Translations under genes and position numbers: made by a program
The notes under the pieces: generated by a model
Told to the model about the DNA's origin: nothing
Databases searched by the model: none
Seen by the model: only the letters and a program-made list of their open reading frames with translations
Shown here: positions 23,732-31,439 of the stretch, piece after piece
Layout of the letters: the number at the start of each line of letters is the position of its first letter
How positions within the stretch are numbered: position 1 is the first letter of the stretch
DNA from: a bacterium
Lineage (GTDB): Bacteria; Margulisbacteria; Marinamargulisbacteria; JABGVJ01
Assembly: GCA_018646105.1 (NCBI GenBank)
Contig: JABGVJ010000096.1
Location: forward strand, 1 to 32,666
DNA: 32,666 nucleotides
Direction of reading: 5' to 3'

Positions 23732-23822
23732 GCCGAGATGGTGAAATTGGTAGACACGACAGACTTAAAATCTGTTGCTGTTTTAAAGCAGCGTGCCGGT
23801 TCAAGTCCGGCTCTCGGCACCA
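23732..23822 (+). tRNA. tRNA-Leu (anticodon UAA), CCA encoded
   Basis: The acceptor stem is GCCGAGA paired with TCTCGGC, followed by discriminator A and an encoded CCA (23820-23822). The anticodon stem CAGA/TCTG closes the loop CTTAAAA, giving anticodon TAA. A long variable arm with GCTG...CAGC marks a class II tRNA. The T arm contains GGTTCAAGTCC. Length is 91 nt with CCA. Confidence 0.95.
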
Positions 23823-23846: not shown

Positions 23847-25193
23847 ATGAAAATAAAAATCCAAAAAAATCTAGCTAATTTAATTACTTTGACTAGGATT
23901 TTAGGTGTTACGCTAATTTTCTGGGTTACCCCTTATAAAACAAATTTCTGGCAATTGATTGCCGTTAGTATTTTTGTCCTCATTTGCACAACTGACTTTT
24001 TGGATGGATGGGTAGCTAGAAAATTAAATATCGTAACTAACTTAGGAAAAATACTAGACCCTTTGGCAGATAAAATCCTGGTCTTGATTTTTTTGCCGCT
24101 CTTAGAAATGCAAGTCATTACTTCTTTCCCGGTTTTTATTATTTTAGCTAGAGAATTGGCTATAATGGCTCTGAGAATAGCCTCTGCAAAAGACGGCACT
24201 ATTATCGAGGCAAAACTTTCTGGAAAAATTAAAACCGCGATCACTTTACCTGTATGCGCATTGCTTTTTGCTCGCGTACCTGTAACAGAAGTAAGTAACT
24301 TACCTTTAATTTTAACCCCTTTAAATGAGTTGCGTCGTTTTATTTTTATGTGGCCTAGCTGGGTTTTTAATACGTTAATTTGGTTTACCGTATTAATTAC
24401 GGTTTGGTCTTTTCTGGATTATTTTGGTAACTTTATGTGGCAAAAATTTGTACGAAAAACAGGAGGCGATGAAAAAAAAGCTAAACGCCTTCTTTTTGCA
24501 ATTATACCGAATACTTTTACTACCCTTAATTTAATTTGTGGCATATCCGCTGTTTTTTTGGCTTGGATAGGATTCTATCATTTCGCGGTCCTTTTAGTTA
24601 TTTTGGGGATTTTGTTTGATGCCGTTGATGGTTCTTTAGCCAGAAAACTGGATGCTGTTTCCAAATTTGGAGCTAAACTTGATTCTAAAGCTGATTTTGT
24701 GAGTTTTGGGATAGCTCCATCCATTATAATTTATAAAATATTATCTGAAACTAATGGGATCCCTTTATTCTGGGGGATATTTTTGGCTTTAACTTATTAT
24801 GGGGCCATACAATATCGATTGAGTCGTTTTGATAAAGGTGGTCATTCACCTTATTTTGAAGGACTGCCTTCGCCGATAGGTGCCTCTTTGGTTTTAATTG
24901 CGGCAGTATCTAATCTTTTGTCCAGTGTTGTCTTTTTTGTACCTATTCTAATTCTGGTAGAAATATTAATGATATCGCGTATTCCATATGCTCATTTTGA
25001 AATAGCTAGTAAAAAAACTTTTTTTAAATTTTTAAAAATCCCGCTAATTATTGTGCTGTTATTAACAATATTTAATCTCTTAAAAGTAGATTATGTGCGC
25101 TATATTTATATTTATGAAATATTGTTCGCCCTAATTTGTCTTTATGTTTTAACACCAGTATTTTCTTATTTTGTACCTACAGAAAAAAAATAA
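23847..25193 (+). CDS. Fused phosphatidylglycerophosphate synthase and phosphatidylserine synthase (PgsA-PssA)
   Basis: One continuous 448-residue frame holds two CDP-alcohol phosphotransferase domains. The first (about 1-190) begins KNLANLITLTRILGV as in PgsA and has the full metal-binding motif: D50, D53, G54, A57, R58, G67, D71, D75. The second (about 208-448) begins FAIIPNTFTTLNLICG as in PssA and has the motif again at D258, D261, G262, A265, R266, G275, D279, D283, with PssA features VSFGIAPS and YFEGLPSP. The two would make PG-phosphate from glycerol-3-phosphate and PS from serine, both with CDP-diacylglycerol, at the inner membrane. Many hydrophobic helices are present in each half. 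The ATG is 24 nt after the tRNA-Leu; an upstream in-frame ATG at 23793 lies inside the tRNA and was rejected. No strong ribosome site is seen. Confidence 0.88.
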   Translation: MKIKIQKNLANLITLTRILGVTLIFWVTPYKTNFWQLIAVSIFVLICTTDFLDGWVARKLNIVTNLGKILDPLADKILVLIFLPLLEMQVITSFPVFIILARELAIMALRIASAKDGTIIEAKLSGKIKTAITLPVCALLFARVPVTEVSNLPLILTPLNELRRFIFMWPSWVFNTLIWFTVLITVWSFLDYFGNFMWQKFVRKTGGDEKKAKRLLFAIIPNTFTTLNLICGISAVFLAWIGFYHFAVLLVILGILFDAVDGSLARKLDAVSKFGAKLDSKADFVSFGIAPSIIIYKILSETNGIPLFWGIFLALTYYGAIQYRLSRFDKGGHSPYFEGLPSPIGASLVLIAAVSNLLSSVVFFVPILILVEILMISRIPYAHFEIASKKTFFKFLKIPLIIVLLLTIFNLLKVDYVRYIYIYEILFALICLYVLTPVFSYFVPTEKK

Positions 25194-26151: not shown

Positions 26152-27390
26152 TTACGAATAATTCTTGAAAATAATTACCGCGTTATGCCCTCCAAATCCC
26201 AGGGAAGTTGATAAAGCATAATTGATTTTTTTAGTTTTAGCCTTATTCGGCGTATAATCCAAATCACATTCAGGATCTGGGTGCTCATAATTAATAGTGG
26301 GAGGAATAAGTGAATGTTGCATGGCTAAAACGCAAGCAATTCCTTCCAAAGCACCGGTTGCTCCTAAAAGATGCCCGGTCATTGATTTGGTGGAACTAAT
26401 GCTTAATTTATAAGCATGAGGCCCAAAGGAGGTTTTTATAGCCATGGTTTCATATTTATCGTTAAGCTCTGTAGATGTACCGTGGGCATTAATATAATCT
26501 ATATCTTGTGGTTGAATACCAGCATCTCCGATAGCCGCCGCAATAGCACGTGAAGCACCTTCTCCACCAGGAGCCGGAGCTGTAAGATGATGGGCATCAC
26601 CGCTGGCACCAAAGCCTACTACTTCGGCATAAATTTTAGCTTTTCTTTTTAAAGCATGTTCAAGTTCTTCAAAGATAAGTATAGCCGCACCTTCGCCCAT
26701 GACAAACCCGTCTCTCTCGGCATCAAAAGGACGCGAGGCTTTCTGGGGATCGTCATTACGTTTGGATAAAGCTCTAGCAGCACAAAAACCCGCTAAACCT
26801 AAAGGTGTAACAGCCGCTTCGGCACCACCTACAATCATAGCTTGAGCATCGCCACGCTGTATGGTCTTAAAAGCGTTACCCATAGCATTTGTAGAAGAAG
26901 CACAAGCTGTAACCGTACAACTATTAGGACCTTTAGCACCTGTTTTGATAGAAACAATACCAGCTGCCATATCTGAAATCATCATTGGGACCGTAAACGG
27001 ACTAACTTTGGAAGGGCCTTTTGCCGATAAGGTTTTAGCTGTTGCTTCCAAAATTTCAATACCACCGATACCGCTACCTATTTCAACACCGATGTTTTCA
27101 GCTTCTGGGGCAATGTCTAATCCTGAGTCTTGTACAGCTTCCACTGCCGCGTTTACTCCAAACAAAATAAAACGCGCTGTTCTGCGAACTTCTTTTTTAT
27201 CAAAACAATCTGCGGGTACAAAATCTTTCACACAACCTGCAATTTGGGTAGTGTATTCTGAAACATCAAACGTATTTATTTTGTCTATGCCTGATTTGCC
27301 TGCTTTTAAAGCTTTCCAAAAATCTTCGACATTGTTGCCAAGTGGGTTAACAGTACCTATGCCTGTAATAACTACTCTATTTTTAGCCAA
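26152..27390 (-). CDS. fabF: Beta-ketoacyl-ACP synthase II
   Basis: This 412-residue condensing enzyme elongates acyl-ACP with malonyl-ACP. The catalytic triad is Cys163 (TVTACASSTNAMG), His303 (INAHGTSTELND) and His340 (STKSMTGHLLGATG). The start is TTG at 27388-27390, with AGGAGG 8 nt upstream, and no better start exists nearby. It follows acpP by 33 nt, the usual acpP-fabF order, and precedes rnhB. Product and carrier are thus encoded side by side. Confidence 0.97.
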   Translation of the reverse strand: MAKNRVVITGIGTVNPLGNNVEDFWKALKAGKSGIDKINTFDVSEYTTQIAGCVKDFVPADCFDKKEVRRTARFILFGVNAAVEAVQDSGLDIAPEAENIGVEIGSGIGGIEILEATAKTLSAKGPSKVSPFTVPMMISDMAAGIVSIKTGAKGPNSCTVTACASSTNAMGNAFKTIQRGDAQAMIVGGAEAAVTPLGLAGFCAARALSKRNDDPQKASRPFDAERDGFVMGEGAAILIFEELEHALKRKAKIYAEVVGFGASGDAHHLTAPAPGGEGASRAIAAAIGDAGIQPQDIDYINAHGTSTELNDKYETMAIKTSFGPHAYKLSISSTKSMTGHLLGATGALEGIACVLAMQHSLIPPTINYEHPDPECDLDYTPNKAKTKKINYALSTSLGFGGHNAVIIFKNYS

Positions 27391-27423
27391 AACCCGTCCT
27401 CCTATTTTTTTAGTGCGTTTTTT

Positions 27424-27672
27424 TTAGCTAGGGTGATTAAAGATATAGTCTACAGTCTGAGCGACAGTAGTTAGTTTTTCAGCGTCTTCATCAGCAATTT
27501 CCGTGCTAAATTCCTCTTCTAAAGCCATAACTAATTCTACAGTATCTAGAGAATCAGCGCCTAAATCTTCTGTATAAGAAGCTTCTTTAGTAACTTCGTC
27601 TGCGGCAACGCCTAGTTGTTCTACTATAACTGCTTTTACTTTTTCAAATACTTCCTTTTCTGATAATGCCAT
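27424..27672 (-). CDS. acpP: Acyl carrier protein
   Basis: This acidic, helical protein of 82 residues carries acyl chains on a phosphopantetheine arm. The attachment motif is DSL with Ser41 in [18 protein letters not shown]. The ATG has AAGGAGG at good spacing. It sits 79 nt downstream of fabG and 33 nt upstream of fabF. Confidence 0.97.
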
Positions 27673-27751
27673 TATAAATTTCCTCCTTATTTTTTTTCAT
27701 CTTAACTTGTTTAAAAAATGTATCAAAGATTCTATTCTTAATCAAGGTTTT

Positions 27752-28492
27752 TTACATTACCATGCCTCCGTCAACCTTAATAACTTGTCCTGTTACATAG
27801 GCTGAAAGGTCGGCCGCTAAAAACAACGCTATGTTAGCAACATCTTCGGGTTCGCCTAGTTTTTTTAACGGAACTAGATTCAAAAGGTTATCGATATACT
27901 CTTTAGGCAAAGTTTCGATCATTTTGGTATTGATAAAGCCAGGAGCGATAGCGTTACACAAAATTCCTTTAGAACCGTATTCTTTAGCAATGCTTTTGGT
28001 AAAACCAATAATCCCGGCTTTTGAGGCCGCATAATTAGATTGCCCTGCATTTCCCATCACGCCGACAACTGAAGCTATATTAATAATTCTACCACCTTTG
28101 TTTTTAAGCATTGGTCGTAAAACAGCTTTGCTGCAATTAAAAACAGAATTTAAATTTATCTCAATAACTTTTTGCCATTCTTCCGGAGTCATTCTTAATA
28201 AAAGATTGTCTTTAGTAATTCCGGCATTATTAACCAAGATATCAATTTTACCAAACTCGGCTATAACGCGAGCTGCTAATTTTTGAGTTTCCTCAAAGTT
28301 TGAAACATCTGTTTTGACACCTAAAGCACGTACTTTATATTTTTCGGTTAAACTTTGAGCTGCCTGGACACTGCTTTCTTCTGAAATATCGCAAATAACT
28401 ACGTGACAACCTTCCTTGGCAAATTTTTCAGCAATGCTATAACCAATGCCTCTTCCTGCTCCTGTAATGAGCGCAACCTTGTCTTTTAACAT
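27752..28492 (-). CDS. fabG: 3-oxoacyl-ACP reductase
   Basis: This 246-residue short-chain dehydrogenase carries out the NADPH-dependent first reduction of fatty acid elongation. The nucleotide motif is GAGRGIG (11-17), NNAG is at 88-91, and the catalytic Ser141, Tyr154 and Lys158 (YAASK) are in place. The C terminus GQVIKVDGGMVM is typical. AAGGAGG precedes the ATG. It is 19 nt after fabD. No fabZ or enoyl reductase gene is seen in this cluster, so those steps must be encoded elsewhere. Confidence 0.95.
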   Translation of the reverse strand: MLKDKVALITGAGRGIGYSIAEKFAKEGCHVVICDISEESSVQAAQSLTEKYKVRALGVKTDVSNFEETQKLAARVIAEFGKIDILVNNAGITKDNLLLRMTPEEWQKVIEINLNSVFNCSKAVLRPMLKNKGGRIINIASVVGVMGNAGQSNYAASKAGIIGFTKSIAKEYGSKGILCNAIAPGFINTKMIETLPKEYIDNLLNLVPLKKLGEPEDVANIALFLAADLSAYVTGQVIKVDGGMVM

Positions 28493-28511
28493 AGATTTCC
28501 TCCTTTTTTAA

Positions 28512-29426
28512 TTAATCTAACTTCTGCGCGTCTTCCAAAGTAGACACGCTATAAATTTGAGTATCTGACAAGGTTTTTTTTATTAAACCTGTTAATACTT
28601 TACCTGGCCCACATTCAATAAAAAAATCTACTTTGTTTTTTAAATAATGAAGAGAATCCACCCAAAAAACAGGCGACTTAATTTGTAATGATAAATTTTC
28701 TTTTAGTTTTTGGGCCTTAGTTTCCGGCTGAGCTGTACGATTAAGAATAATCGGGATTTTACTATCTTCAAAAGGAATATCTTCTAAATACCGGGCGAAT
28801 TTTGAGGCTGCCGAAGACATTAAAGGCGAATGAAAAGCCCCGCTTACAGGTAAAGGAATTACTCTTTTAGCGCCTTGTTCTTTTAAAGTTTCACTAGCTG
28901 CTCTAACCCCTTCTTTTTCACCAGAAATTACTATCTGGCTTGGGCTGTTGTAATTAGCAATAACGACCGGATAATGCTCATATGGGGTCAAAACTTCCTT
29001 GAGCTTAGCACTGTCCATACCCAAAACAGCGGCCATGGCAGATCGATCACTAGCAAAAGAAGCGGCCATAAATTCTCCACGTGCTTTGATAATCTTTAAA
29101 GCATTTACCAAATCAAAAGCGCCGGCGATATAACAAGCTGTGACTTCCCCTAAACTGTGTCCGGCCACAAAATCTGGTTGATATCCTTTTTTGGCTAAAA
29201 ACCTAGCTAAACAAACAGAGGTTAAAAAAATACCGGCTTGGGTATTTTCGGTTTTTTTCAAGTCTTCTTCCGGTCCCTGGAAACAAAGTGCTGCTATATC
29301 CCGACCCAGTATCTCTTGGGCTTGATCAAAAATAATTTTGGCCTCAGGAAAATGAGTGTAAAGGTCCTGCCCCATACCTACGTATTGGGACCCCTGTCCT
29401 GGAAAAACAAAAGCTTTTTTAGACAT
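28512..29426 (-). CDS. fabD: Malonyl-CoA:ACP transacylase
   Basis: This 304-residue enzyme moves malonyl from CoA to ACP. The nucleophile is Ser91 in GHSLGE, the partner His199 is in SGAFHSPLM, and the oxyanion-loop Gln is in FPGQGSQYVGMG at the N terminus. AAAGGA lies upstream of the ATG. It is 8 nt from the fabH stop, consistent with a shared message. Confidence 0.96.
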   Translation of the reverse strand: MSKKAFVFPGQGSQYVGMGQDLYTHFPEAKIIFDQAQEILGRDIAALCFQGPEEDLKKTENTQAGIFLTSVCLARFLAKKGYQPDFVAGHSLGEVTACYIAGAFDLVNALKIIKARGEFMAASFASDRSAMAAVLGMDSAKLKEVLTPYEHYPVVIANYNSPSQIVISGEKEGVRAASETLKEQGAKRVIPLPVSGAFHSPLMSSAASKFARYLEDIPFEDSKIPIILNRTAQPETKAQKLKENLSLQIKSPVFWVDSLHYLKNKVDFFIECGPGKVLTGLIKKTLSDTQIYSVSTLEDAQKLD

Positions 29427-29434
29427 TTTCTGTT

Positions 29435-30460
29435 TTATCCTTTCTTAATACCGCCCCATCTGATAATATTCGAGGCCCATGTAAAGCCTCCTCCAAATCC
29501 GACTGATAACAGTAAACTATCTTCTTTTATTTTACCTAAACTCACGGCTTCTGCCAAAGCAATAGGAATAGAGGCGGAGGAAGTATTGCCGTATTTTTGA
29601 ATATTAATATAGACCTGATCTTTTTTGAGACCAAGTTTTTTGCGAGCATATTCAATAATTCTTAAATTGGCTTGATGTGGCACCATATAATCGATGTCTT
29701 TGGAGGTTAAATTAACTTTTTTCAAAGTATTTTCAATCGTGGGAATGATACTATTAATAACTACTTTATAAAGAGCCTTACCATTCATAAATACAAAATG
29801 GGATTTATCTTTTAACATTTCGGCTGAGAACGGTTTTTTAGAACCGCCTCCTTTGGTGATTAAGATATCTCCTTCTGCACCATTAGCATTTAAATCCGAA
29901 GCTAAAATACCGTAACCTTCACTTACTTCGGACACTACCACAGCGCCTGCTCCATCGCCAAAAAGGATACAGACAGAACGGTCTGTCCAATCCACATATT
30001 TTGACAAACAGTCAGCGCCAATAACTAAAATGTTTTTAGCAAAACCCGTACCAATAAACTGAGCCGCTGTTGTAAGGGCATAATTAAACCCTGTACAAGC
30101 TGCCGAAACATCAAAAGCACCAACTTTTTTTATACCTAATCTATCCTGCACTAAACATGCAGTAGAAGGAAAAAGAGGATAATCAGGAGTAGTAGTGGCT
30201 ACAATAACCAGGTCTATTTCTTGAGGAGTGAGACCGGCATTATCTAAAGCTGCTTGACCAGCCTTGACGGCCAGGTCAGCGGTTCCCATACCAGGCTCAG
30301 CGATCCGGCGTTCTTTAATACCAGTTCTTTCGGTAATCCATTTGTCAGACGTGTCCAAGCCTAGCTTAACAAAATCTTCGTTAGTTACAATTTTATCAGG
30401 TAAAGCTTTACCGACACCAATAATACCCGCTGATTTTAAAATTGTTTGTTTATTCTGCAT
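29435..30460 (-). CDS. fabH: Beta-ketoacyl-ACP synthase III
   Basis: From the ATG at 30460 it has 341 residues. It starts fatty acid synthesis by joining acetyl-CoA to malonyl-ACP. The triad is Cys122 (VSAACTGFNYAL), His262 (VPHQANLRI) and Asn292 (YGNTSSASIP). A TTG two codons further upstream (30466) is also in frame, but the ATG is preferred. It overlaps the plsX 3' end by 11 nt, so it is probably translationally coupled. Confidence 0.96.
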   Translation of the reverse strand: MQNKQTILKSAGIIGVGKALPDKIVTNEDFVKLGLDTSDKWITERTGIKERRIAEPGMGTADLAVKAGQAALDNAGLTPQEIDLVIVATTTPDYPLFPSTACLVQDRLGIKKVGAFDVSAACTGFNYALTTAAQFIGTGFAKNILVIGADCLSKYVDWTDRSVCILFGDGAGAVVVSEVSEGYGILASDLNANGAEGDILITKGGGSKKPFSAEMLKDKSHFVFMNGKALYKVVINSIIPTIENTLKKVNLTSKDIDYMVPHQANLRIIEYARKKLGLKKDQVYINIQKYGNTSSASIPIALAEAVSLGKIKEDSLLLSVGFGGGFTWASNIIRWGGIKKG

Positions 30461-31439
30461 AAGCAATCTTTTCTACCATGTTAGTCTCAACTGCTTGTTG
30501 AGCTATTTTGATAGCATTTTTAATAGCCTTGGCCCGGGATTTACCATGCGCAATAATGGTTACCCCATTAATGCCTAACAGAGGTGCTCCGCCAATTTCT
30601 TCATAATCAACATCTTTTTTAAATCTTTTTAAGGCTGGAGCCAATAACAAAAGAGCGATTTTAGCTATTACCGAAGTTTTCCATTCTTTTTTAAAAAAAT
30701 CAAAAACTAAGCCAATTACGCCCTCGCCAAATTTCAAGAGCACATTACCCACAAACCCGTCACAAACTACAACGTCAGCTTTATTACATAAGGCTTCTTT
30801 GCTTTCAATATTGCCAATAAAATTTAAAGATGAATTTTTTAAAAGATCATAAGTAGCTAAAGTCAAGGCGTTGCCTTTATCTGGTTCTTCGCCAATATTT
30901 AACAAGCCAACTCTAGGATTATCAATACCTAAAATTAATTTACAAAAAAAAGTTCCCATAACAGCAAATTGGTAAAGAAATTTAGGTTTACAGTCAACAT
31001 TAGATCCCATATCTAACATTACAAAAGGTTTTTTATGAATGTTGATCACAGTAGCAATCGCAGGTCGATCTATATTCTTTATTCTGCCTAATACTAATGT
31101 AGAGGTTGCCATCACAGCGCCGGTATTGCCGGCTGAAACAAAAGCGTCAGCTTTTTTTGCTTTTACTAAATTAAGTCCTACCCTAATAGAAGAATCCGGC
31201 TTTTTTTTAAAAGACTGCGCAGGAGACTCGCCCATTTCCACAATCTGAGTGGCGTTTTTAATAGTAATTTGAGGATACTTAAAAAAGTCGCCTATAGACG
31301 CTATCTTCTTTTTAAGAAGAGTTTCCGGGCCAACCAAAATAATTTTTACTGGGAAAGCTTTGACTGCTTCTAAGGCACCCTTAAGGATTTCCTCTGGAGC
31401 GTGGTCTCCGCCCATAGCATCTAAAGCTATTGTTATCAA
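30450..31439 (-). CDS. plsX: Phosphate acyltransferase PlsX
   Basis: This 329-residue enzyme makes acyl-phosphate from acyl-ACP for the PlsX/PlsY route to lysophosphatidic acid. It begins MITIALDAMGGDHAPEEILK, the family hallmark, and contains FVSAGNTGAVMA, ATVINIHKKPFVMLDMGSN and DVVVCDGFVGNVLLKFGEG. Order rpmF-plsX-fabH-fabD-fabG-acpP is the common bacterial one and links phospholipid start-up with fatty acid synthesis. The gene starts 3 nt after the rpmF stop. Confidence 0.97.
   Translation of the reverse strand: MITIALDAMGGDHAPEEILKGALEAVKAFPVKIILVGPETLLKKKIASIGDFFKYPQITIKNATQIVEMGESPAQSFKKKPDSSIRVGLNLVKAKKADAFVSAGNTGAVMATSTLVLGRIKNIDRPAIATVINIHKKPFVMLDMGSNVDCKPKFLYQFAVMGTFFCKLILGIDNPRVGLLNIGEEPDKGNALTLATYDLLKNSSLNFIGNIESKEALCNKADVVVCDGFVGNVLLKFGEGVIGLVFDFFKKEWKTSVIAKIALLLLAPALKRFKKDVDYEEIGGAPLLGINGVTIIAHGKSRAKAIKNAIKIAQQAVETNMVEKIAYAE

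Follow-up and report, generated by a model that had tools for sequence, protein, structure and literature searches.

A conserved single-chain fusion of PgsA-type and PssA-type CDP-alcohol phosphotransferases in a class of Margulisbacteria

The fused gene and its two motifs

The window, the whole stretch of 32,666 nucleotides of contig JABGVJ010000096.1 that was analysed, hosts an open frame of 448 codons plus stop (23847-25193, + strand), devoid of internal stops, which is here called a pgsA-pssA fusion gene. A longer listed ORF begins at the GTG at 23793. Because this codon falls inside a tRNA-Leu(TAA) gene (23732-23822, + strand), the ATG at 23847 is taken as the start. The tRNA gene resides outside the fusion, 24 nt upstream, and bounds the ORF at its 5' side. 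A conserved linkage of the two was considered and rejected, as no tRNA-Leu was found within 1.5 kb of the fusion in 23 relatives of the same class. About 1 kb past the end of the fusion, the opposite strand carries fabF, fabG, fabD, fabH and plsX-like genes (26152-31439, - strand), which have been named from reading their translations only.

Membership of the CDP-alcohol phosphotransferase (CAPT) superfamily is defined by the motif DG(X)2AR(X)8G(X)3D(X)3D and by a match to Pfam PF01066. Both features occur twice in the fused protein. A preliminary description of this DNA had read two complete motifs in one uninterrupted frame, and translation and Pfam agree with it. Motif 1 (D50..D53..D71..D75; 23994-24071, + strand) reads DFLDGWVARKLNIVTNLGKILDPLAD from D50 to D75, motif 2 (D258..D261..D279..D283; 24618-24695, + strand) reads DAVDGSLARKLDAVSKFGAKLDSKAD from D258 to D283, and PF01066 matches each half separately with 106 and 65 bits, above the gathering cut-off of 22. 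All eight aspartates are invariant in the 19 fusions that could be aligned.

The motifs mark two domains, one spanning residues 7-197 (23865-24437, + strand), the other residues 220-439 (24504-25163, + strand), connected by a short Lys/Arg-rich linker (residues 197-219; 24435-24503, + strand). Seven K/R and three D/E are found in the region 190-222. Related CAPT structures have six helices (PMC8633023), and both the even helix number and the basic linker fit a junction which plausibly lies on the cytoplasmic side of the membrane.

Assignment of the halves to different subfamilies

The halves were profiled alone as residues 1-202 and 203-448. The first scores 118.3 bits to the pgsA model TIGR00560 (cut-off 109.1), the next family reaching 58 bits. 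Its closest solved structure is S. aureus PgsA (PDB 7drj, E = 4e-21), which is also its Foldseek counterpart, and resemblance to the S. aureus enzyme (PDB 7drj/7drk) extends to motif and length. The best model for the second half is the pssA model TIGR00473, with 99.1 bits, just under the cut-off of 107, followed by archaetidylserine synthase, an enzyme of the same head-group chemistry, with 92 bits. The whole protein is above both cut-offs (TIGR00560, 123.8 bits; TIGR00473, 122.1 bits), and both models match in 19 of the 19 aligned fusions. The solved structure closest to the second half is the M. jannaschii PSS (MjPSS; PDB 7b1k/7pow, E = 4e-15).

An AlphaFold2 model of the fusion, built from the alignment of the class, has mean pLDDT 87.2 and pTM 0.74. 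When compared by Foldseek to the PDB, PSS structures come first (top match 7pow, TMt 0.82), followed by PgsA structures, and nothing else is matched at E <= 0.001. Two short strands in the model, 336-338 and 380-382, resemble those described for MjPSS. In the archaeal enzyme D62, S63, D66 and F105 hold the catalytic serine, R101 and R104 form a pair of arginines close to the active site, and activity is killed by the R101E change and halved by R104E (PMC8633023). These residues of the serine and anion sites, D62, S63, D66, R101, R104 and F105, align to D279, S280, D283, R324, R327 and F328 of the fused protein. Position 280 is either S or T among aligned fusions, and the other five residues are invariant. 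The last three are part of the sequence RLSRF (24816-24830, + strand), in which R324, L325, R327 and F328 never vary, so that the RLxRF motif is invariant in the 19 aligned fusions. In a phylogenetic tree each half forms one clade, the first with PgsA, the second with PssA.

By profile, structure, Foldseek and tree alike the first half is a PgsA, as judged from its sequence. Assignment of the second half to type II PssA, with which it shares motif, RLxRF, the two short strands, best profile and best structure match, is supported by the combined evidence, on which it has to rest because the isolated half is slightly under the pssA cut-off. The PgsA-like and PssA-like labels of the preliminary description are thus retained, as profiles, structures and Foldseek all point to different best subfamilies for the two halves.

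A tandem duplication of one CAPT gene could mimic two subfamilies, and PF01066 is indeed common to the halves, which also show a weak BLAST match to each other (E = 1e-6). Yet by profiles, structures and tree each half lies nearer to a subfamily of its own than to its partner, the two are not sisters in the tree, and the two genes are found separate in two genomes of the phylum (G001 and G031). The probability of such an origin is practically negligible. It may alternatively be supposed that the halves use other acceptors, the first as a CDP-alcohol cardiolipin synthase, or the second as a phosphatidylcholine or inositol-phosphate synthase. The first half also scores to the CAPT-type ClsA model NF053678 (58 bits), and the second to a phosphatidylcholine synthase model (45 bits), but these values are far under the respective cut-offs of 240 and 400, and under those obtained with PgsA and PssA, and the first half cannot be ranked as a ClsA. 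In addition, if the first half were not a PgsA the assembled genome would have none, and the serine-site residues of MjPSS are retained in the second half. A change of acceptor in either half is therefore very improbable.

A continuous junction, conserved within the class

The preliminary description had warned that a stop between the halves might have been removed by a sequencing error. According to this view, adjacent pgsA and pssA genes would be read as one through a lost stop or a frameshift. The junction holds a run of eight A (24472-24479) and, in the +1 frame and in this genome only, an AGGAGG sequence followed by ATG (24461-24471), which could be taken as hints in this direction. However, the same frame is open in 20 genomes, and relatives align in frame through the junction almost without gaps, which contradicts the loss of a stop or an indel. 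Close pairs of fusions differ across the junction mainly at third codon positions, with no indels; over residues 191-220, differences at first, second and third positions are 1:1:11, 3:0:12 and 8:1:12 in three such pairs, as expected of a translated and constrained segment. No conserved internal start with a Shine-Dalgarno sequence was detected. An internal restart yielding a separate PssA was also considered, and rejected since the AGGAGG-ATG and the A run are out of frame and confined to this genome. The fusion is real and conserved in the class, and is not an assembly artefact, the odds of the latter being vanishingly small.

The same architecture, which the preliminary description had proposed to look for in related genomes, is encoded by a single ORF in 20 of the 27 genomes of the class, in proteins 37-57% identical to that of the window. 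Recurrence of the same frame in 20 genomes places a two-domain frame far beyond chance. In four more genomes of the class (G008, G011, G017, G020) an N-terminal piece of the fusion runs into a contig end, and the missing C-terminal piece of G008 sits at another contig end. PF01066 found no match in G006 and G021, assemblies 66% and 55% complete, respectively. Separate pgsA and pssA genes are present within the class only in G001. There, pgsA lies in the order rimO-pgsA-cinA-recA (names from reading translations), and pssA adjoins psd. A recA-like frame is found just downstream of pgsA also in other members of the phylum that were checked, and none was seen within the 1.5 kb flanks of the fusions. 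PgsA is normally a separate protein, encoded near recA in the phylum members checked, whereas the PgsA half described here is fused and outside the recA context. Similarly, type II PssA is normally a separate protein, encoded beside psd in G001 and G031, but makes up the C-terminal part of the fusion. In the remaining 47 genomes of the phylum, the A1 profile revealed standalone pgsA genes or nothing, pssA being restricted to G031, where it again adjoins psd. The simplest history would be that the two genes were joined once within the class, at a place other than the ancestral pgsA site.

The spread of the fusion beyond the phylum was monitored in samples of two other phyla. At E <= 1e-60, a loose threshold when compared to the 1e-160 or better of full or nearly full fusions, none was found in a sample of 145 genomes (centre locus titled Verrucomicrobiales), or in one of 379 genomes (centre locus titled Myxococcota). 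Among the matches listed for the A1 profile in wider genome contigs are ordinary PgsA genes, and a scan of viral contigs gave two weak CAPT matches only. The preliminary description knew of no well-described example of the pairing, and no published description of a PgsA-PssA fusion was found in the titles and abstracts listed, a coverage outside which most subscription journals fall.

Predicted activities at the CDP-diacylglycerol branch point

The genome of the window (1.56 Mb in 120 contigs, 90% complete) hosts one CdsA-type gene (PF01148, contig C103). No PF01066 match other than the fusion was found in this 90% complete assembly, and separate pgsA or pssA genes, which the preliminary description had suggested to search for, are missing from it. 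Among PGP phosphatase families, PgpA was searched and not found. Similarly, psd (PF02666, TIGR00163) was not found in the same 90% complete assembly, either because of an assembly gap, or because PS may be the end product. No psd match was obtained in five other genomes of the class either, all from incomplete assemblies. The gene was found in most members of the class; of nine outside genomes searched, G031 alone gave a match. In the genomes of the class in which both were found, fusion and psd reside on different contigs.

The fused protein is most plausibly a bifunctional integral membrane PGP/PS synthase, made of an N-terminal PgsA, a short linker and a C-terminal type II PssA; from the sequence evidence, a probability of about 85% is assigned to this reading. 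Both halves would be active. CDP-diacylglycerol would be supplied by the CdsA-type gene, and used along with a divalent metal by each half. The first half would transfer to glycerol-3-phosphate, to give PGP and then PG, the second to serine, to give PS and, where psd is present, PE.

Alternatively, only one activity may have been kept, the other half being a pseudo-enzyme with a structural or regulatory role as dimer partner. Solved CAPT structures are dimers (PMC8633023), and the second half evolves faster than the first, as the end branches leading to the protein of the window measure 0.49 and 0.24, respectively. Yet all the catalytic aspartates of both halves, as the Arg and Phe residues typical of PSS, are invariant in the aligned fusions, psd tracks pssA among the relatives checked in the phylum, and the assembled genome offers no second CAPT gene that could provide the missing activity. 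Loss of one activity is accordingly considered improbable.

In a bifunctional synthase, the two branch-point activities would be carried by one polypeptide, which would hold their copies in constant proportion and give them a common location and a common expression signal. The preliminary description had proposed that a fusion would fix the ratio at 1:1. This holds for the enzyme copies, but not for lipid flux: the PG:PE flux would still depend on the kinetic properties of the two sites and on the supply of acceptors. What the fusion fixes is the enzyme copy ratio. Channelling of the shared substrate, which had also been suggested, does not apply in its usual sense, because PgsA and PssA reactions are parallel, and not sequential. 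Coupling, shared localisation or co-regulation of the two activities are the options to consider instead. A more elaborate scenario can be imagined, in which the halves pack as an intramolecular pseudo-heterodimer, and occupancy or product of one site alters the other. The protein would then act, throughout the class, as a homeostat for the ratio of anionic to zwitterionic lipids at the CDP-diacylglycerol branch point. This scenario is speculative and rather unlikely.

Natural fusions including a CAPT membrane domain are known. In IPCT-DIPPS and AF2299 (PDB 4mnd, 4o6m) the partner is a cytosolic domain. The partner in IPCT-DIPPS makes the CAPT substrate, and the steps are sequential. In contrast, the PgsA-PssA fusion joins two CAPT domains which compete for one substrate in parallel steps. 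Both enzymes of the branch are in one chain, kept across most of the class. The fusion therefore offers a natural system in which to study how the proportion of these two lipid types is set by the cell, and the protein a suitable tool to assess whether enzyme coupling constrains the lipid ratio. In synthetic membranes, the gene might also serve as a one-gene module for producing lipids of the PG and PS/PE types.

Given the distribution of pssA and psd, PS/PE synthesis by the pssA-psd route may be missing from the greater part of the phylum. Additional CAPT genes occur in four genomes (G002, G010, G014 and G024), and score neither as PgsA nor as PssA above cut-off. Those of the fusion-bearing genomes G014 (L159), G024 (L158) and G010 (L160) are divergent, and under every NCBIfam cut-off. 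The extra gene of G002 (L157, 577-1788), which may belong to another head-group pathway, is PssA-like, and is directly followed by a small cytidylyltransferase-like frame.
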